Assembly (NCBI RefSeq): GCF_029873635.1
Contig: NC_080422.1
Location: forward strand, 6,727,764 to 6,791,763
Direction of reading: 5' to 3'
From: Malania oleifera
Taxonomy: Eukaryota > Streptophyta > Magnoliopsida > Santalales > Ximeniaceae
Length of the DNA: 64,000 nt
Shown here: one piece after another, positions 34,931 to 47,084 of the stretch
Position numbering within the stretch: the stretch's first letter is position 1
How the letters are laid out: every line of letters begins with the position of its first letter
Program-made: the position numbers and the translations under genes
Notes under the pieces: generated by a model
Seen by the model: only the letters and a program-made list of their open reading frames with translations
What the model was told of the DNA's origin: nothing
The model's database searches: none

Positions 34931-35521
34931 TTAGATCTCATTCATTGTGAGATATGGGGCCCCTTCTCCTGTAAAGTCGGAATTGGGTTTTGCATACTAT
35001 GTTTTATTTGTTGATGATTTTTCCTGTTTCACTTGCCTTTACCCAATAAAATTAAAATCTGACTTCTATGCTACTTTTCTTCAATTTCAAAAATTTGTGA
35101 CAAATCAACATTCTGCCCATATAAAAATATTTCAAAGTGATGGTGGTACGTAATTCACTAGTAACTGCTTTAAAGCACACCTTCGTACCTATGACATTCA
35201 TCATAAACTCTCTTGTTCATATACACCCGCCCAAAACGGTCATGCCAAAAGGAAACATTGTCAAGTGACTGAGACAAACCTAGTCCTCCTTTTCCATTCT
35301 CACACTCCTATTTACTTCTAGGTTGACGCTTTTAGCACTGCTACTTACATTATCAACCGTTTTCCCACATCGCTTCTCAAAGGTAAGTCCCCTTTTGAGC
35401 TTCTATATGGTTCTTTTCCTAATTATGCAAACTTTCATCCCTTTGGTTTTCGTGTTTATCCTTGCTTATGTGATTACATGACTAACAAATTTTCCCTCCA
35501 TAGTCTTCCTCGCATTTTTAT
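34931..35521 (+). pseudogene. Copia C integrase, first part
   Basis: LDLIHCEIWGPFS and FVDDFS-type text in alternating frames, then a degraded core, up to the segment before the 'GY' motif. The coding text continues at 46573 after element O with no loss, which confirms the insertion site. Confidence 0.8.
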
Positions 35522-37548
35522 TGTAAGGACCCGAACCCGAGTGGATTCCTACATATAAATTTTTCAGCGGACATACATAAATCTAAATTATTTTTATTAC
35601 TAGAGCACTAGTTAGCTTTATTACAAATATATGTCTCAACTATTAAAATGAAAATTTCTAAAATTTTAAAATACACAAACATAATTCTAAATTGTATTAT
35701 GCTAATTTTTTTTTTATTCTACTCTGCTCTTTCTACTCCCACTCATGCACTTGCTACGCCCGATTTTAAGTATCCTCTTCAAAATTATATGAAATGTAAA
35801 ATAATGATTAAAGTGAGACGACACTCAGTAAATAAATAAGATTATTATTAGTATGTGGCTAAAATGAGCTTTCATAATATTTTAATTTCGTAAAATAATA
35901 TTTAATACTATAACTTCAAAATTACTTTTAAAATAAATATAAATTAAAAATTTTCTGTATAAAACTTTTACTTTCATCTATAGCAGTAAAATTTTATAAT
36001 CATATACTATAGTTGTTAAACTGAAATTTTTAACTTTTAAAATTATAACGATAATACTCAATCATGTATATATATATATATATACTTTTCTTTATTAACG
36101 CATTATTTAGGTACAAAAATGCCCCCGTTCACATAAACATATATTTTTCCTTCAATTCATCAATAGCTTTGTATACGTAATTAAAAATATATATATACAT
36201 GTACTGTAAAAACTACCATTAGGCATGTTAATCGTAAGTCATGTTAACCCCCATTACTGGGTTGTGCGGTCCAAAAACTAAACTTAACTGGCTTGCCAGC
36301 CAAACTAAATTAATGTACATCATTATTAAGTGAGATTTTTCCTATTAAACCTTAGTCCGACCTAGGTGTGCACTCAGGAGAATTCCACTACCATGTAAAA
36401 CCACTCTGCAAATAATGTGGGTACACTCTCATCCGTTTAAACTTTAAGTTGCAATATCGAACATTTATAATTTTCTGTATCATTTGTGCCATAAGGGGTT
36501 TTGAAAACATCTTATTATAAAATTTATAAAATTATAATAATATCATGAAAATCTCATTTTTTTACTCATATTTTCGTAAAATACGTAACGTAAAAATCAA
36601 CTCATGTCATCTTTACTCATATTTTTGTGAAATATGCAACGTAAAAATAAACTCATGCCAGACAATTTTCGTGTTAAAAATATTTTTTTTGAATAGAAAT
36701 TAATACTGTAAAATACCCAAGGGGTTTAGAATATTTCTTAACTGAAAAATAAACGCAAGTATATTAAAGATAAAACTGGTATAATTAAATATGCATAAAA
36801 ATAAACTTTGGAGAATTTTATGAAAATAACTAACATAAACAAAATTTACTTACTAATAAACTTGAGTATAAGTTTTAAATAAAAATCTAACATAATCAAA
36901 TTTACTTACAAATAAACTCAAGTAAAAATTTTAAATAAAAATATAACATAATCGAATTTACTTATCTCTTACTTAATCTTGTGCTGCGATCATAATGAAT
37001 ATTTTTAAAAAATGAGATCGGAAAGAGTGGGTGAGTGAGAATTTTAATTATAATAAAAAATTTTACCACTAATTTTTTCACTCACTAATTCTTCTTTTCT
37101 TTTGGAATTTTTTTTGTGAAAAAAGAATGTTGAGAGCTTCCTATTTATAGGAAAATTTTGGGGAAGAAAATTAAATTTGTAAAAATGTAGGGAGAGAGGT
37201 GAAATTATAATTTTTAAAAAAATTAAGGAATTGACATGGATGGGTTAGGTATGAGTTAGGTATGAGATGGGGATGGGGATCATGTTGGAGAAATGGGAGT
37301 GCTTGTCGACACTCTCATTAGATTAATTTTTAATTAATTTAATTAATTAATTAATTTTTTGAAATCATTATTATTATCATTGTTATTATTTTTAAATTTT
37401 GTTTTAGTCCTACACAATTTCGAGTCCTAAGTGGGTCTTACGTAACTCCAATAGTCTTCACACAATTTTATGGACCCTACACAGTTTCGGAACTCATCTG
37501 GACCCCACACAGCTTCAAGACTCATGTGAACTCGACATAGAATACCTA

Positions 37549-37596
<48 letters not shown>

Positions 37597-37916
37597 CATA
37601 TATTTCTACAAACTATGTCAATCAAAACATTATTTTATGTATATGTACTTATTTACGTGTACAAGTAGTATCTATCCTGTTTATCTTATAAAATTTCATT
37701 TTGATCAAGTCAACCTCTAGGGAGCAACTAAGCCGCAATGGTCTCTGAACACTAGCTGAGATAAGGTCTTTTTTAAGCATCAAATATAGAATCAAGGATC
37801 CTACAGAAAAGCACTTATATATTGATATTAACTTAATGACCATTTATTATTATCATTATTATTATTATTATTATTATTATATTTTAATCGTATATATATA
37901 TTTTTCAGTCATCACA
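35522..37916 (-). repeat. 3' LTR of element O
   Basis: 2395 bases, TGTAAGGACCCG to GTCATCACA. Its last 890 bases match 45676-46572 closely. Contains (ATT)n tracts and the reversed 'gggttgtgcggtcc' motif common to this LTR group. Confidence 0.9.
37550..37596. repeat. (ATT)n microsatellite
   Basis: Pure ATT trinucleotides. A second run is at 37851-37881, and shorter ones lie in the matching LTR at 46232-46270. Confidence 0.97.
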
Positions 37917-37928
37917 TTCTCCCCTCCT
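37917..37928 (-). other. Polypurine tract of element O
   Basis: Minus strand AGGAGGGGAGAA directly before the O 3' LTR. The same 12 bases and the preceding 'gaaatttttata' occur before the LTR of gypsy E (30783-30794). Confidence 0.9.
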
Positions 37929-38189
37929 TATAAAAATTTCGTCCTCGAAATTTGATAATTTAAAATTAGTACAACATGATTGGTTGCGCTCTTTGAAAGA
38001 GTAAATTGATGAACGATTTTGCTAAATCTTAGAATAGATTAAGGTCAATTTGGCGAAATATTTTATTTTGGGAACTGAAGTGTGAATCGTCGATCTAATA
38101 GGGGTTGAAATGGAAAAGAAATTCAGAAGATTTGGAAAAGGATAATTTTTTTTAAATATATATATATAACAAAATGAAATGAAATCTGG

Positions 38190-38915
38190 CTTTTAGAGCC
38201 TTAGCGCAATGTCAACATCTATCGAAGTGCTAGCGGTGTCATTGCTATTTTCCTGGGTTCTTTCTTGGCGGAGTTGACCTCTTGTAAGTTGCCAGGTTGG
38301 GTCAGAAAAAAGGAGAAAACGCCGGTTTGTTTGGCAAAGGAGGAAAAGCTGCCCTCTTCCCCTTGTGGCCTTCGGTGGGGATGCTCGTAACGAGCCATCA
38401 GTGGCCCCGTATATGAGTCTCAAGGTGTATTGGATCTCTTGGCAATGGTGGAGTAGGCCAGCATTATCTGAAACCCTTAGTGTGGTGACTGCGATGCTGC
38501 CATTGTAAGGGGTATGACTCATTGGTGTGATGTTAGTTGTAAGCTTCATAGACGGAATATTGTCAATAGGGATGAAGGTACAAGTGGTTGAGAAAACGGC
38601 AGGGGCACTATTTGAGGCGATAGTGGCGAAGGAGGTAAGATGGATAATTGGTGGGCCAATAGTTAAAATAGTGACTTCTTCAACTAATCCTCACCTACGC
38701 CTACGGTTCTCAAACCAAAAGCGTACATTTTTCAACTCTATTGGACCATGTCGTACTGCAAGCAAGATAGCCTGCTCTACAAAAGGGAGTTCCCCTTGAC
38801 TGCTGCGGAAGGCTTCCTCTAAAATCTCCAGTTGTGCCTTACTGAGTTTCCACCTTTGGATTGGCGAACTAGTGCTACTCTCGATAACTTGGGGAGTTTG
38901 GTGATTTGGCAACAT
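38190..38915 (-). pseudogene. WOX-like homeodomain protein carried by element O (one in-frame stop)
   Basis: The ATG at 38915 opens a 241-codon frame with a single TGA at codon 75, probably a former CGA; the same frame runs on to a stop at about 38190. Residues 21-74 look like a homeodomain: helix 1 QRWKLSKAQLEILEEAF, helix 2 around PFVEQAILLAV, and helix 3 LKNVRFWFENRRRR with the invariant W, F, N and R. Spacing between helices 1 and 3 is about three residues longer than in ordinary homeodomains. With the K-N-V-x-x-W-F pattern this suggests the WUSCHEL-related (WOX) type. The rest is Thr/Ser/Pro-rich and not recognised. Homeodomain proteins bind DNA in the nucleus. The frame lies on the sense strand of the retroelement, between its remaining 5' part and the polypurine tract, about 260 bases before the tract. 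It could be a captured host cDNA or gene piece. Confidence 0.65.
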
Positions 38916-39035
38916 TTTCAGTTAAATGAAACGAGTAACGAGACAACTAAAAGAAAAGTTGGGAAGAGCGAATATATGCAAAACGAAATGTGGTTGTTTA
39001 AGATGGTAGAAAGTTGTGATGCTTAGAGTTCGAGG
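38916..39035 (-). other. Leader before the homeodomain frame
   Basis: 120 bases without a gene, between the homeodomain ATG and the 58-base O-LTR piece. If O were complete, its PBS would be expected near here; none is visible. Confidence 0.6.
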
Positions 39036-39093
39036 AGTAAAATTTTAAAATCATATACTATAACTGTTAAACTGAAATTTTTAACTTTTAAAA
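39036..39093 (-). repeat. Internal fragment of the O 5' LTR
   Basis: Nearly identical to 35985-36042 inside the O 3' LTR ('tcatatacta', 'ttaaactgaaatttttaac'). It marks the left part of the damaged right LTR. Confidence 0.8.
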
Positions 39094-39096
39094 CTA

Positions 39097-39373
39097 AAAC
39101 ACCCGTGTACCTTGGAGCTGGTTAAACAAATCATCTATACGGAGTAAATGATATTTATTTTTGATTGTCACATTATTAATCTCCCTATAATCGCACATCT
39201 TCATAGTCCCATCTTTCTTCTTCACAAATAGAATAAGAGCTTCCCACGAAGATACACTAGGTCATATAAAGCCCTTATCGAACAAATCTTGCAGCTGATT
39301 CTTCAATTCTGTCAACTCCGTTGGTGTCATTCAGTACGGTACTTTAGAAATAGGCGTTGTACCTAGAAGTAGA
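39097..39373 (-). pseudogene. Gypsy T reverse transcriptase, N-terminal part
   Basis: Minus strand reads [44 protein letters not shown] and [18 protein letters not shown], the RT fingers of a Tekay-type element, with two stops. It stops before the catalytic box. Confidence 0.9.
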
Positions 39374-41401
39374 TGTAACGACCCGAACAATAATGATATT
39401 TAAATAATAAATAAGGGAAAAAATGGAAACAGTAACAGAAGGAGATAGCCATCTTCGTCAATGAACGCTTTGTGTTCGTCGACGACATTGCATTTTGGAG
39501 GTGATAATTTCAAAAAATTTCCCAGGCTTCTTCGACGAACATAGGGGTTTCGTCGATGAGGGTTCTTCAGGATCTCGTTGACGAGGTCCCGTCTCGTCGA
39601 CAAGAAGGTACTGAGAAGGATTTTTGGAAGTTTGAAATTCGTTGATGAGGGTGCAAGTTCATCGACGAACTCTCTATAGGACTCATCGACGAGGTGACGT
39701 GAATCGTCGACGAATCTCACAATATAAATAGTACTTAAACTCAGTTTTTACGCAGAAATCTCAGCGGAGACTCTCTCTCTCCTCTCTCTACGGTCCCTCT
39801 CCAATTTTTTTTCGATTTCGGCCCCGCCAATTGCCGGATCGACAATATAAGGCCACCACGATGCTCCTGACAAAGTTTTCTTCAAGTCTGCTAGGGCGGA
39901 TCATTGGTGGGATTGAGTTGAATTTCTTCCCAGAACAGGCTAAGGTCTTTTAGTCAATTTTTGGTCTTCTAGCAGTTGTATGAAATGATGCAGGCAAAGA
40001 AATATTGATATTTTGTTCTAACGAATGTTGTTTTCAGGGTATCCTGTAGGAAGCCCTGCAGGGGTAGGACCGGTATATGATAAGAGCTTTTTAATACTCA
40101 GGTAAGAGAAATATGCTATGCTACGCAGTTTTAGAATGAGATTCAATATGAAATGTATATTTTACTAGATTATTATTCAGAATAGAAATTATACAGTTTA
40201 TCATGTATATTTAATATGTTTTAAATTACTGTGTGGTTTGAGAATATAAATATAGTACAGAAGTATGTTTTATAGTATTTTCAGAGTATGTGATACAGAA
40301 TATACAGATAGTAAATATGTTTTATAGTATTTTTAGAATATCATGATTATACAGATTTACAGTTTATTACAGAAATACAGTTGATATAGATACAGTTTAC
40401 AGTACCATGACATATAGTTTTACAGTTCATTTTAGAAATACAGTTGATACAGATACAATTTACCACAGCGTCATGGTTTACACAGTTATTATAGAATCAT
40501 GGTAAAACAGATAGTTGTATATAGTGATGTATTATATAGTATCAGACCTTGTTGGACCATTACAGATTATAGAGCACGGTACTGTAACTACATACAATAT
40601 ATAGAGTACAACCACCTATTCAGATAATACGTGGTATAAAGGTCAATCATATAGAGCCCACGAGTGGACAAGATCCCCATCGGATATGGGTTGAGAAGGG
40701 CTGATCTGACCTATGGAGTATAGTGATTTATTCTAGTTGGCCAGCCAGGGTAGATCCCGCCTACGGGCCGCACAACCCTGTCATGAGGGGTTAAATCACG
40801 ACACACAGTTATCCACAAGGAAATTTTCAGTTATTACTATGTTTATATAGATTTACAAAAACAATATATATATTAGAAGTATTTTGAGTAGAAACCTAAA
40901 GTACAGATATGATAAGCAACCGGAAAAAGGTGATGGTTTACATTACTGGTATTGTTTTTACAGATTCTCTGATACATGATTATTTAGTAATAGATTCACA
41001 GCATTGTAACTCAATTATCATATACTAGCAATAGCATATTTCGTCTTACTGAGCGTTTGCTCATCCCATTACTTTAACATTTTTCAGGTGATCTAGGTTG
41101 GCGAGCATACCAGGGTCGCAAATAAGGGGGCCTGGTATTGTCTTGACAGTAGAGTGAGTATTTTGAGAGTATTTTTGTATAGCCCTAGCCAGTTGAGGGT
41201 ATTTTTGGAAAACAGTCATCTATGTATATTTTGGGAAACATTTTAATACTCTAGTATTATATATAATTATATATGGTTATGTTCATTTGATTTTTGCTTC
41301 TCGTTGCTTAGGTTGATGGTTGGGTTTAATTCAATTTGGTATCAGAGTATTATAAATGTTATAGTATAAAAAAAAACCCAGTTAAATGGCAGGTCATTAT
41401 A
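39374..41401 (+). mobile_element. LTR-only insertion inside gypsy T
   Basis: Starts TGTAACGACCCG and ends GGTCATTATA, an inverted match of the same termini after C-to-T and G-to-A changes. Flanked by AGTAGA (39368-39373 and 41401-41406, sharing one base with the end). The protease-RT linker of T reads through when one target copy is removed. The array of TCGTCGACGA-like motifs, the CT tract and the 'cctacgggccgcacaaccc' motif place it in the E/T family. TGGTATCAGAG at 41337-41347 lies 54 bases inside its right end. Confidence 0.85.
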
Positions 41402-42410
41402 GTAGATCTATAGGAAAATCCACCTCACGATCAGGCGGTAAGCCTGGTAATTCATCTGAAAAAACATCTATAAACTCCTTTACTACAGGCATGCTAACAA
41501 GTTTTAATTCATTCTTTGGCATCTCCTTCACAAAAGCCACAAACCCCTAACAACCGCTCAGCAGTAGTCTCCTCACCTGAATAGCTGAAACTAACTGGGG
41601 TGAAGATTGCACTCGTGACCCTGCGAACCTAAATTTTGCCCTTCTTGGAGGTCTGAATATCACTTCTCATGAAGGACAATCTATACTGGCAAAATTAGCT
41701 GCTAACCAATCCATGCCAAAGATTACATTGAACCCATGCATGTCTAGCACTATTAGATCAGTAGACAAAATTTCCCATTGAATATCAACTGGCCATTCCC
41801 AAAGTACCTTACTACACCTCACTACTGACCCAGTTGGTGTAGATACCAACAACTTAGTGTCTAACAACTGTGTTTTTGCCCCACATAGTCTAGTGCACTC
41901 TGAAGAAACAAACGAGTGTGTGACTCCTGAATCAAATAATGCAATAACTTTAAAAGAAAGCATTCTAACCATACCTATCACCACGTCACCAATCGTCCCA
42001 ACATCTTTTGGCGTAAGAGCGAACACTCTGGCTGGAGCCATATTCTTCTGCTGGCCTCCACGTGGTGCTTGGTAGCCTCCTAAGTACGGTCTAGGAGCAA
42101 GAGCGGCATCTGGTGGTGTAGGACAGTCTTGCACCATATGCCTCGGTCTACCGCAGTGATAGCAGACAACTCCACTTGCTCGACACTCTCCCAGTGTCTC
42201 CTTCCACAAGTCTGATAGACAGGACGACCTTGCACTGTCTGCACCTCGCGTCCTCCAGTCTCCTTCCTCTATCCTCTGCCATGGTTTCCTCTCCTCCACT
42301 GATTCTGTCTAGGACCTTGCTGGTAACTCGAATATGCAGATCTCTTCCTATGTCCTTGCTCCTCTGCATCCAAACGCTCACCAACCTCTGCTAAGGCTGC
42401 TCTATCGACT
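41402..42410 (-). pseudogene. Gypsy T zinc knuckle, protease and linker
   Basis: Zinc knuckle CYHCGRPRHMVQDC (about 42123-42164, CX2CX4HX4C) and an intact protease active site LFDSGVTHSFVS (Asp near 41932), then VIFGMDWLAANFA. Beyond a stop at 41667 the linker reads ELPGLPPDREVDF up to the insertion at 41401. Frameshifts separate it from the upstream gag. Confidence 0.92.
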
Positions 42411-43411
42411 AACTCAGTAAAATCCTAGATTCGTAGCACTACCACTTGCTTAAATATACTTCGCGTTAGACCTTTTTCAAACTGTCTCGCCTTATTTACC
42501 TCATTAGGGACAATATATGAAGCAAAACGAGAGAGCTCTATAAAACGCGCCGTATACTACTAGACTGATAACTGTCCCTGCTTCAGACTCAGGAATTCTT
42601 CCACTTTAGCCTCCCTAATAGTAGCTTAAAAATATCTCTCGAAGAACAATTCCTTAAATTGATCCCAAGTCATGGCTATCGATGTAGCCCTCTGCTGCTC
42701 CAGAAGCCTCACAGCAGCCTAGCACCTCTTAGCCTCTCTTATCAGTCTATAGGTGGTGAAGAGGACCCTCTGTTCTGCGGTACACTGCAACACGGCCAAG
42801 ACTTTCTTAGTCTCCTGCATCCAGTTCTCGGCGATTGCAGGATCGACTCCTCCTGAGAATGCCGAAAGATTTATCTTCGTAAACTTCTCTATAGAATACC
42901 CATGGCCTGTAGACAGACCACCCTGCTCTCTAGAGCTCCTAGCGATATCAGCCATAACCTATTGAGCTGGAAAATATCTCTCGAAGAACAATTCCTTAAA
43001 TTGATCCCAAGTCATGGCTATCGACGTAGCCCTCTATTGCTCCAGAAGCCTCACAGCAGCCCAGCACCTCTCAGCCTCTCCTGTCAGTCTATAGGTGGCG
43101 AAGAGGACCCTCTATTCTGCGGTACACTGCAACACGGCCAAGACTTTCTCAATCTCCTGCATCCAGTTCTCGGCGGTTGCAGGATCGACTCCTCTTGAGA
43201 ATGCCAAAAGATTTATCTTCGTAAACTTCTCTATAGAATACCCATGGCCTGTAGACAGACCATCCTGCTCTCTAGAGCTCCTAGCGATCTCAGCCATAAC
43301 CCGTTGAGCCACGCTACGTAATATTGTGTCAGAGTCAGTCCCACCTGCACCTGAGGGCCCTGCCCCATCACTGCCGCTCTCATGGGCACTACCTCCTCCT
43401 AGATCCATCAT
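42411..43411 (-). pseudogene. Gypsy T gag with a 342-bp in-frame duplication
   Basis: Start at MMDLGGGSAHESG (43411 or 43408). The gag fold is recognisable: WMQEIEKVLAVLQC, TWDQFKELFFERYF, FLSLKQGQLSV and FEKGLTRSIF. The central part is present twice in tandem (43314-42973 and 42972-42631), each copy 342 bases or 114 codons, so the frame is kept. The copies differ at several positions and each has its own stops. The product would form the particle shell; this one is broken. Confidence 0.92.
42631..43314 (-). repeat. Direct tandem duplication, 2 x 342 bp, in gag
   Basis: 'aatatctctcgaagaacaat' recurs at offset 342 (42631 and 42973). The match extends through 'cagccataacc' near 42948 and 43291. 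Confidence 0.95.
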
Positions 43412-43674
43412 GAACAACAACAAACGTAAATTAGAAATCCTATACTTTTAGCTTACACACCTAACATAGTTCCCCCACTTTAACTCCCTCAACTCATTCC
43501 TAACCCCAATCCTACATTCTAGAAATACAACCCGACAATAGTTTACTCTGGTTTTCATGGAATCGTCGCCATGGAATTCCTACCTCTAGAATGTAGAACA
43601 AAACCTCAAATCATTTTCCTATACTCTGGTATTGTTTCCGCTGCACTTTAAAGTTTACAGAACCTAGCAACCTA

Positions 43675-43687
43675 GGCTCTGATACCA
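43675..43687 (-). other. Primer binding site of gypsy T
   Basis: Minus strand TGGTATCAGAGCC, three bases from the LTR; initiator Met tRNA type. Confidence 0.93.
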
Positions 43688-43690
43688 AAC

Positions 43691-45308
43691 TGTAACGACC
43701 TGCTTAATTTTCATATATTTTTTTTCAATACTATAATAAAACTAGTATAACACATCTAGCAGATCATGATCAACCTGAACCCGTGAGTACCAGGGATACA
43801 TCAGAGATATAATACGGAAGCCTAAGTAGTAAGAAATATAAAATCATATACATCCCCACGTATTATCTAACACAATACCAGAGTTGCTATATTCATTATA
43901 TACATCTCAAAATAGTCAAAAACCAGTCCTAGGGTCGTTTCCCACAAGACTATCCAACCCTACCAAAATATATACCCTTTAGAAAGGGCAGACCAGCTAT
44001 AACTATCTCAGCGGAGCTTTATCCGCTCTCCTATCAGAGGCTCCTGAAATGATCATATAATTAGGGATGAGACACCTCTCAGTAAGGAAAATAAACTAAT
44101 ACTAGTGTGTGGTAACATGAGCTTTTCTGTGATATACATATAATCATATACATAAACATAACCAGTAAAACTGTATATATATCATTTCTGGGAAAAACAT
44201 GTATAATCATAGCATAGCATAACATACAGGATTTCTTTAAGCATAATCCATCTTATACAAAAATAATAATAAGAAAACAACCCTGGTAGGTTAGCTGGTT
44301 GTTGTCATGTATTACCCCCATATGACTGGGTTGTGTGGCCCAAAGGTTGAACCTGACAATGATTAGCCGACCACTGCCAAGTCAAAAGTACAGTCTATAA
44401 GTCTGATGGGTCTGCCAGACCTGGTCTGTACACCAAGTGCATCCACACTTCTTAAAACCACATCAACTATCCGTCATCACGCTACTCCATATAGCAGCAT
44501 TAACACAATATCATGATGATCATGAACACATAGCAGTGGTTTCGTGCAAGTGCTAACTTAAACGAAGCCAACCAGGTTCTGATAACATATAACATATAAT
44601 CAAACTGTGATACATGAATATTTCATATTATTAACTGCCAAATCAATATCATTGCATCATTTTGTATATTTATATATCATAAAAATCATTATCCCGTACG
44701 CCGATATTTCATATTTTACCATAGGTCGGCCCGTACGTTGGCAAATCAGATCCATAGCTTGGCTCGTACGCCAAAAAATCATATGCATAATATTATCATG
44801 TTCCCAGAGAACAGTAATTTATCATAAATTCTACTCTTGCCACACATAATGGGTTTTACAAGTAATTAGAATATCTCATCAGTTTTAGCAGTATTTTCCA
44901 ACATAATACATATTTATATACATACATTTTTCTGAAATCAAATGCTATAAAATTATACTTTATATTTTCATAAACATCTAGCTTAGTTTATCCCCTTACC
45001 TGATTTGTGAAAAGCCCCTAAGAAAAAAAATAGTCCTGCACCCGCAGGGTTCCCCGTTCAACACCCTGAAAATGATATTCCCCATAACTAAATTTCAGTA
45101 TTTCTATGCGTACTACGTTTCCTACAACTGTCAAAAAGTCAATATTGAGTAGAAAGCCTTACCCTGGATTTGGGATGGATTCCGAACTAGCCCCACCAAC
45201 GATCCACTCCAACAGATATGTAGAGAACTTCCTCAGGAGCGTTGTGGTGGCCTTGGATCGTCGAACCGGCAAAAGATCGGCCCAAAATCCTAGAGAGAAG
45301 GAGGGAAA

Positions 45309-45350
<42 letters not shown>

Positions 45351-45672
45351 TATGCAGCCAAAATGAGCTGAAAAAATGCGTTTAGGGCTACTTATACTAT
45401 GACCTTCGTTGACTAGCCACGTCATCTCGTCGATGAGGTCGTGAAAACAATTCGTCAACAAACTCACTCATCGTCGATGAAATTCAAAAATGCCCAAAAC
45501 ATCCTCTCGGTACTTTCTCGTCGATGAATCACCACCTCATCGATGAGCCCCTCTTGTTCTCTCGTCAATGAATTTCCTATGTTCATCGATGAGGACTTGT
45601 TTAATTATTCTGTTAATTCTTTTTTTCCCCCTTCTTCCATTATTTAATTATTTAAATGTTTGGGTCACTATA
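43691..45672 (-). repeat. 5' LTR of gypsy T
   Basis: 1982 bases. On the minus strand it starts at 45672 as TATAGTGACCC (from TGTAACGACCC) and ends AGGTCGTTACA at 43691. Contains decayed TCGTCGACGA motifs (45400-45600), a GA tract, the reversed 'gggttgtgtggccc' motif and weak 'cgtacg' repeats near 44690-44780. Confidence 0.9.
45312..45347. repeat. (GA)n microsatellite in LTR T
   Basis: Eighteen GA units, at the position where the other LTRs of the family have CT tracts on the transcribed strand. Confidence 0.97.
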
Positions 45673-46239
45673 AGGCGAGTGAGAATTTTAATTATAACAA
45701 AAATTCTCCCTTCACCATTAATTCTTTCACTCACTAATCATTCTCTTCCTTTGGAAATTTTTTGTGAAAAATGAATGTTGAGAGCTTCCTATTTATAGAA
45801 AAATTTTGGAGAAAAATTGAATTTGTAAAAGTGTGGGGAGAGGGGTGAAATTATAAATTTTTTTAAATTAAGGAATGAGCATGTTTGAGTTAGATATGGG
45901 CTAGGTATGAGAAGGGGATGGGGATCATGTGAGATAAATGTGAGTGCTTGTTGACACTCCCATTTGATTAATTTTTAATTAATTAATTATTTTTTTTGAA
46001 ATCATTATTATTATCATTGTAATTATTTTTAAGCTATGTGTTAGTATTTTTTTTTTTATGAAAAAGAATTAAGTTCGAATTTCGAAAACTTATGTGGACC
46101 CCACACAACTTCGAGACCTAAGTGGGTCCTACGTAATTCCATTAGTCTTCACACAATTTTATGGGCCCTACACAGTTTTGGGACTCATGTGGACCCCACA
46201 CGGCCTCGGGACTTATGTGGGCCCCACATAGAATACCTA

Positions 46240-46273
<34 letters not shown>

Positions 46274-46572
46274 TTTCTACAAATTATGTCAGTTAAAACA
46301 TTATTTTATGTATATGTACTTATTTACATGTACAAACATTGTCTATCATATTTATCTTATGAAATTCCATTTTGATTAGGCTAACCTCCAAGGAGTAACT
46401 GAGTCGCAATGGTCTTTGAACACTCGCTAAGACAAGGTCTTTTTTAGGCATCAAACATTAAATCAATGATCCTACAGAAAAACACTTCTGTATTGATATT
46501 AATTTCATGACCATTTTTGATATTATTATTATTATTATGTTTTAATCGTATATATATTTTGAGGTCATCACA
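45673..46572 (-). repeat. 5' LTR of element O, surviving U3 part
   Basis: Matches 37020-37916 of the O 3' LTR over about 890 bases, including the ATT tracts and the 'gtcatcaca' end. The rest of this LTR is replaced by gypsy T. Confidence 0.9.
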
Positions 46573-47084
46573 TTTATGGGTTACAGTTCATCTTACAAAA
46601 GGTTTCGTTGTCTTGACCCCACCACCTCTAGACTTTATATCACTTGACATGCCCAATTTGATGAGAACCACTTCCCCTTCTAATATACTTCCTAGGCATA
46701 ACCCATGTCCTCCCTCCACATCTCCAAATTTATGGAATCCAATCTTCCACATACAAACATGCCCCTACCTTCTCCTACACCACCTTCTCGACACATTCCT
46801 CAATCCGGATCCAACCTGTGTATTATTTGTTTTGATATAGTGGATCAGTCCTTGCAAGCAGCTAATTCTCATACAAGTACATCTTTGCTGCACTCGGCCC
46901 TCCGCCCGGCTTCTCTTGAGCCTGAGCCTGTGTTGCATATCATTGCTCGCACTCCTATTGCAGCTGCCCCATTGGGCTCCCATTTTATACTCACATGAGC
47001 CAAAGCTGGTATTTTTAAGACTCACTACCTTGTGCATCTCGGCCTTGTGAAATCATCTAGCCTTCTTTTTGCTTTTCTAGCATC
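46573..47084 (+). pseudogene. Copia C integrase C-terminus and linker
   Basis: Begins at the target repeat and continues the integrase text (GYSSSYKRFRCLDPTTSRLY), followed by the low-complexity Pro/Ser-rich linker of copia elements. Confidence 0.8.

Follow-up and report, generated by a model that had tools for sequence, protein, structure and literature searches.

LARDs have long LTRs and no gag-pol, are presumably mobilised in trans, and have interiors that have been described as non-coding. Transduced ORFs in plant LTR elements have been described in one or few copies (excerpts of PMC7264820), and a comparable case is maize Bs1, a plant LTR element with captured host coding sequence, which holds segments of three enzyme genes, none of them with a full-length ORF (excerpts of PMC13317346). 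The plant aORFs (TRP28 ORFs of Retand) are extra, probably DNA-binding ORFs present in most family copies (parts of PMC7264820 and PMC11963269); they are mostly antisense, lie between pol and the 3′ LTR and, according to parts of PMC7264820, are without similar genes outside TEs. On the side of host proteins, the WUS-box marks the modern WOX clade, within which WUS and WOX5/7 also have an EAR motif at the C-terminus, of the form L[DE]LRLS in WOX5/7 (parts of PMC6788696); WUS-box and EAR are both tied to TOPLESS corepressors (a part of PMC9968055). We have seen no precedent for a homeobox-carrying plant LTR family in the literature searched, most of it outside subscription papers, and an earlier note on the present DNA, made from its letters alone, likewise knew of none; the string 'homeo' is absent from PMC13317346, PMC11963269, PMC3726574 and PMC7264820, which deal with captures or extra ORFs.

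The window, by which we mean the whole stretch of 64,000 nt of Malania oleifera DNA that was analysed, contains an LTR element, O, that is interrupted by foreign sequence (Table 1). Since the TSD ATAAA flanks both position 46572 and position 35522, the LTR pieces belong to one insertion that was later split by about 6.6 kb, and the K2P distance between its 5′ and 3′ LTRs is 0.143 over 840 aligned bases. The frames at 43447-41667 might be taken to make the homeodomain ORF an extra ORF beside the gag-pol of the same element, and this was rejected since they have no counterpart in the family members L011, L014 and L016; such matches as L011 and L016 do have to the foreign stretch fall outside those two elements. 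The gag-like frames of the foreign element contain a 345-bp tandem duplication (94 %; 42623-42967 and 42965-43309), and the foreign sequence also holds two inverted segments of ~68 % similarity (39529-40070 and 45033-45592), the first of which is rich in CGTCGACGA-type motifs.

Table 1. Features of element O and of the foreign sequence within it (window coordinates)
Feature	Position	Strand	Basis or remark
Whole element O, TG...CA, split by foreign sequence	35522..46572	-	LTR termini, with the perfect 5-bp duplication ATAAA on either side
TSD ATAAA, 5′ side	46573..46577	-	
TSD ATAAA, 3′ side	35517..35521	-	
5′ LTR, first ~900 bp	45674..46572	-	blastn against 3′ LTR and family LTRs
Foreign sequence within element O	39096..45673	.	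carries the protease/zinc-knuckle ORF, gag-like frames and RT-like fragment
Protease/zinc-knuckle ORF of another retroelement, in foreign sequence	42308-41667	-	RVP_2, 8.6e-30
Gag-like frames in foreign sequence	43447-42719		label by inspection; no Pfam family
RT-like fragment in foreign sequence	39261-39094	-	label by inspection; no Pfam family
5′ LTR remnant, 59 bp, adjoining internal region	39037..39095	-	88-90 % to LTR positions of L011, L014, L016
Remaining internal region including homeodomain ORF	37917..39036	-	80-82 % to L011, L014, L016
WOX-like ORF, decayed copy	38190..38915	-	Pfam match and comparison with open copy
Homeodomain, residues 20-74	38694..38858	-	PF00046, E=2.5e-7
Polypurine tract (PPT) AGGAGGGGAGAA	37917..37928	-	immediately 5′ of 3′ LTR
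3′ LTR, 2395 bp, TGTGATGAC...CTTACA	35522..37916	-	

The ORF in the window begins with an ATG at 38915 on the minus strand and has an in-frame TGA at 38693-38691 (codon 75) and its terminal stop at codon 241; a plus-strand reading of 38190-38915 was rejected, the longest overlapping stop-to-stop plus frame being only 93 aa. The earlier note had described a 241-codon frame with one TGA, set between an LTR remnant and the polypurine tract and containing R-W-x-L, E-x-L-E-E-A-F and K-N-V-R-F-W-F-E-N-R-R-R-R, and all of these are present, on the strand that is minus in the window and sense in the element. Comparison with an open copy further shows that 9 bp of the homeodomain have been lost and that there is a +1/-1 indel pair, and together with the TGA these make the window copy a decayed pseudogene.

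A search of the M. oleifera genome at the DNA level gave 688 first-look candidates, of which the best 40 were scored, and all 40 match at 85-100 % identity; a protein search gave 1006 first-look candidates, and each of the 150 scored covers 211-243 of the 243 residues, 29 of them (hand count) with no stop in the matched frame. The proposal that the ORF had been carried in many copies flanked by the same LTRs is thereby supported, the family LTR lying 3′ of the ORF in all ten copies taken with 10 kb of context and also 5′ in nine. Paired LTRs were compared in six copies (L010 and L018 in part) in addition to the window element, and the K2P distance between a copy's own LTRs is 0.086-0.124 in these six. 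Exact 5-bp TSDs flank L011 (TACCT), L014 (TATTG) and L016 (ATAAG) as they do the window element, and that of L012 has one mismatch. After the 5′ LTR comes the PBS TGGTATCAGAGC, which we take to be a match to initiator tRNA-Met, perfect in L016 and altered in L011, L012, L014 and L018, and a 12-base PPT identical to that of the window element is found in L010, L012 and L016; since PBS and PPT are both on the ORF strand, the ORF is sense. Seven of the eight LTR-paired copies have interiors of 2.6-3.4 kb, the other (L015) measuring 4.2 kb with an insertion. The interior of L014, an element of ~7.9 kb, is ~2.9 kb long and thus too short for gag-pol, and no gag-pol was recognised by inspection among ORFs of at least 80 aa in the interiors of eight copies. 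The idea of an extra or envelope-position ORF downstream of pol must therefore be abandoned, as no pol is seen in the family and the homeodomain ORF is the main recognisable one. The family is a high-copy non-autonomous LTR retrotransposon of M. oleifera. We note also that 81-bp tandem repeats form an array 5′ of the ORF in L014 (4138-4428), with similar repeats there in several other copies.

The window ORF passes the Pfam cut-off for a homeodomain (30.8 bits against 22.9), as the earlier note had expected, and PF00046 was also found in every one of 24 older copies that are naturally open; the two outcomes that the note had held against its own reading, no homeodomain match and a single-copy locus outside O-type LTRs, are thus both contrary to what was found. 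The kinship with WUSCHEL-related proteins, whose homeodomains have 60-66 residues, is likewise borne out, the best PDB matches of an open copy being WUSCHEL (E 2e-10) and STENOFOLIA (9e-10), which are also the sole matches below E=0.1 when an open-copy profile is compared with the PDB. A profile comparison with 30 WUS proteins aligns the homeodomain only (columns 16-91, E 1e-15) and finds no WUS similarity outside it. Relative to the WUS alignment the element keeps R4, W5, Q11, L15, P27, L39, G43, N49, W53, F54 and N56, among others, but in place of Q55, in a set of 117 very uniform WUS homeodomains, it has E (WFQN to WFEN). The change from Q to E at homeodomain residue 50 may have altered the DNA target. 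The window homeodomain is modelled as three helices (pLDDT 72.6), and nearly all 50 entries given by Foldseek for this model are homeodomains, none of the entries reaching E <= 0.001 (best 0.63).

The protein is about 230-243 aa in length. The modern-clade signature NVFYWFQNH is not matched, N[VI]RFWFEN being found in 23 of the 36 open copies and other variants in 13. Nearer the C-terminus all 12 young copies have GVLSLFPT, with LSLFP at residues 190-194, and LxLFP is intact in 18/36 open copies (12/12 young) and LxLF in 33/36; this VLSLFP is WUS-box-like, with V or I in place of the T of the consensus TLxLFP. The young copies end in VDLRL or IDLRL, and a C-terminal V[DE]LRL or I[DE]LRL is present in 25/36 and 6/36 open copies respectively, V or I replacing the first L of the EAR consensus with which it was compared (L[DE]L[ST]LN or L[DE]LRLS, of WUS or WOX5/7). 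The corresponding motifs are TLPLFPMH and LELSL in MoWUS and TLPLFPMH and LELRL in P0057, an Arabidopsis member of the WUS panel, while two older element copies (L079 and L089) retain the terminal motif without LxLFP. Shuffling of the C-terminal part of L098, a young copy, produces LxLFP in 0.22 % of cases, an [LIV]xLxL end in 0.15 % and both in 0.005 % (5e-5), figures that apply to two motifs, LSLFP and [VI][DE]LRL, that were spotted post hoc and each deviate from their consensus. The order of homeodomain, WUS-box-like motif and EAR-like motif leads us to think that the capture probably took in the full coding sequence of a WUS/WOX5-type gene.

A tree of 23 homeodomain sequences, only two of them from outside the modern clade, places the element copies with the modern-clade WOX proteins, apart from Mo_WOX9 and L114 (SH-aLRT 92.5, UFBoot 81); the names Mo_WOX1, 3, 4, 5 and 9 for host sequences are provisional labels of our own, based on motifs. 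The element is set beside WOX1 without support, and the source paralogue is thus not named, so that the tree with WOX proteins envisaged in the earlier note gives the expected grouping and stops short of a particular parent. The homeodomain of L098 is 42 % identical to that of Mo_WOX1, 39 % to MoWUS and 34 % to Mo_WOX5. L114 itself (G000:C2:15438830-15439120), a host sequence, has a WOX-like homeodomain that contains RWRPQQAQIKLLKSLFNQG and NVFCWFQNRRSKK; its branch beside Mo_WOX9 is long. The host genome also has clusters of WUS-like pseudogenes (G000:C1:44567324-44824424, C13:48345803-48527417 and C435), in which the exon-1 matches are mostly 79-82 % identical to MoWUS and contain stops, in part in tandem at ~3.4 kb spacing; they seem to be copies of WUS made at the DNA level and unconnected with the element. 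In the protein collection just one Malania protein (P0002) is related to the ORF over most of its length; the second match (P0122) is WOX4-like and covers a quarter of the query. P0002 is the product of an annotated Malania gene, LOC131144967, in which an unrelated N-terminus is joined to an element homeodomain and part of the element's C-terminus; this model reflects either the exonisation of an element or an error of annotation. Since the homeodomain of host WUS lies within one exon, intron loss cannot be used as proof of cDNA capture; the claim that the element had transduced a homeobox gene or cDNA accordingly stands as to the capture, there being a WOX-type ORF in an LTR element, with gene and cDNA indistinguishable. 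The capture of a WOX-type gene and its amplification are well supported.

The best 40 DNA matches, which were not picked for open frames, include three that are open with an ATG and two that are open with the start lost. Their divergence is star-like, with a median of 0.119, and diversity at 0-fold sites (0.118) is close to that at 4-fold sites (0.114), which together indicate a burst followed by neutral decay after insertion. C>T or G>A changes alone from the commonest codon explain 69 of 93 stops (hand count) in 75 copies, of which 20 had been fetched for lack of stops, as would be expected of methylated DNA. A search with the host WUS protein gave 123 matches, of which 39 (hand count) have a common 236-codon open frame, one of these having a TAG inside the match. 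Twelve copies from this young group were fetched, selected for the 236-codon frame; all 12 are uninterrupted and 11 have an ATG, the largest pairwise difference is 5.5 %, and two of them (L098 and L099) do not differ at any of 690 bases. When these are combined with 24 older open copies in a tree, the young copies form one clade (support 1.0) nested within the older ones, and the family resolves into nested subfamilies, in all of which open copies occur. The PPT-LTR junction is unchanged in one young copy examined. Young copies in the same orientation also occur as pairs 5.6-5.8 kb apart (G000:C6:84607386/84612975 and C7:96281010/96286776), a spacing of about one LTR plus one interior, and are perhaps tandem elements sharing an LTR.

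Differences fixed between groups number 9N:5S, 13N:7S and 6N:7S (pooled 28N:19S), compared with 186N:60S private changes in the older open copies (Fisher p=0.03 for the pooled counts); the three comparisons alone give p=0.35, 0.29 and 0.044, of which only the last is nominally significant. The signal of constraint is carried by transitions (13:16 against 79:31, p=0.008), whereas transversions give none (15:3 against 107:29, p=0.77), private changes in the young copies are 13N:1S, and no selection was seen among older copies in comparisons of 0-fold with 4-fold diversity or of frames. Three shared indels are in-frame but were rejected as evidence, since the copies had been picked for open frames. 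Selection on the ORF is thus only suggestive. A stronger, though undated, argument for constraint than the N:S test lies in the long stem of the element homeodomain: ~1.5 substitutions per site separate this domain from those of other WOX proteins, yet the 230-243-codon frame has persisted and the W-F-x-N core is found in most open copies.

The account that we consider probable is that a WUS-clade gene was captured and has long been carried as the element's own putative DNA-binding regulator. Alternatively, a WOX sequence may have been captured and simply hitch-hiked, its frames being open through youth alone and having no role for the element. The neutral decay of the 40 copies, the unconstrained transversions and the 13N:1S ratio in young copies are in its favour, and what plant TEs capture is often a fragment without function (excerpts of PMC13317346, on DNA-TE captures); the length of the stem, over which frame, core and motif-like ends have all remained, and the open copies in every nested subfamily argue against it, and we judge such a passive passenger possible but on the unlikely side. 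The objection from the stem loses force if the substitutions along it arose in a host gene that was captured only afterwards, and this is the starting point of a further alternative, itself doubtful, in which a fast-evolving host WOX was captured late and the host copy has since been lost or gone unrecognised. The long stem may have arisen before or after the capture, and while no close host copy was found, the LTR check covered a dozen loci and one could hide among the matches of the ORF protein search and of the search with host WUS; against this, the protein collection offers over most of the ORF only P0002, and beyond it the short WOX4-like match of P0122. It is very improbable that these sequences are an ordinary expanded host gene family merely lying near LTRs, as the annotation of one copy as host gene LOC131144967 might suggest, and the idea is refuted in the copies examined by the position of the ORF between PBS and PPT of TSD-flanked elements, with an LTR downstream in 10/10 and upstream in 9/10. 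A chance resemblance to a homeodomain, which has nothing in its favour beyond the shortness of the domain, can be dismissed in view of the matches in Pfam (including all 24 open older copies), in PDB sequences and in the profile-profile comparison.

If a captured WUS-clade gene does serve the element as its own regulator, the ORF would be translated from LTR-driven RNA and the protein would enter the nucleus and bind DNA, where it could act as a WUS-type regulator on the element's behalf, whether in its own transcription, in silencing or in expression in the meristem cells that yield germ cells; reverse transcription and integration would be supplied in trans by an autonomous partner. The sites TAATGG, TTAATGG, TGAATGA and TCACGTGA, which are WUS-binding motifs, are not enriched in four LTRs, in which TAATTA and TCATTAA reach a z of at most 2.4, and self-activation through the tested sites is therefore not supported. 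The more specific proposal that a working WUSCHEL-type regulator is used for expression in, or for enlarging or prolonging, the meristem cells from which the germ line arises, new insertions being inherited as a result, is speculative and we hold it improbable. Should the protein work, a transposon would be encoding a transcription factor of the host stem-cell type, and one could test directly whether plant retroelements gain access to the germ line by manipulating meristem identity. In any case, the main recognisable ORF of this abundant non-autonomous family is that of a captured developmental transcription factor and is unbroken in the youngest copies seen, and the family illustrates how a genome can come to hold many dispersed copies of a developmental regulator.

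By comparison with Bs1, with which it shares the capture of host coding sequence by a plant LTR element, the Malania family carries a transcription-factor ORF in at least 150 copies, open in several subfamilies. It resembles Retand in that most copies carry a probably DNA-binding ORF, but this ORF is sense and stands in elements with no gag-pol seen, and its source family, WOX, is recognisable. The long LTRs and the lack of recognisable gag-pol are those of a LARD, from which the element differs in having an ORF in its interior. The protein has the homeodomain, a WUS-box-like motif and a C-terminal EAR-like motif in the same order as WUSCHEL and WOX5, although the homeodomain of L098 is only 36-41 % identical to the WUS homeodomains in the tree and has E for Q in WFQN. 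Acute transforming retroviruses carry captured cellular growth regulators, and the Malania element differs from these in being vertically inherited in a plant, with no infection and only a putative effect on the host cell. To read it as a plant counterpart of the oncogene-carrying retroviruses is the same claim, by analogy and equally improbable, as that of a regulator acting in germ-line meristem; the likeness lies in a captured master regulator borne by a retroelement that lacks genes for its own replication.
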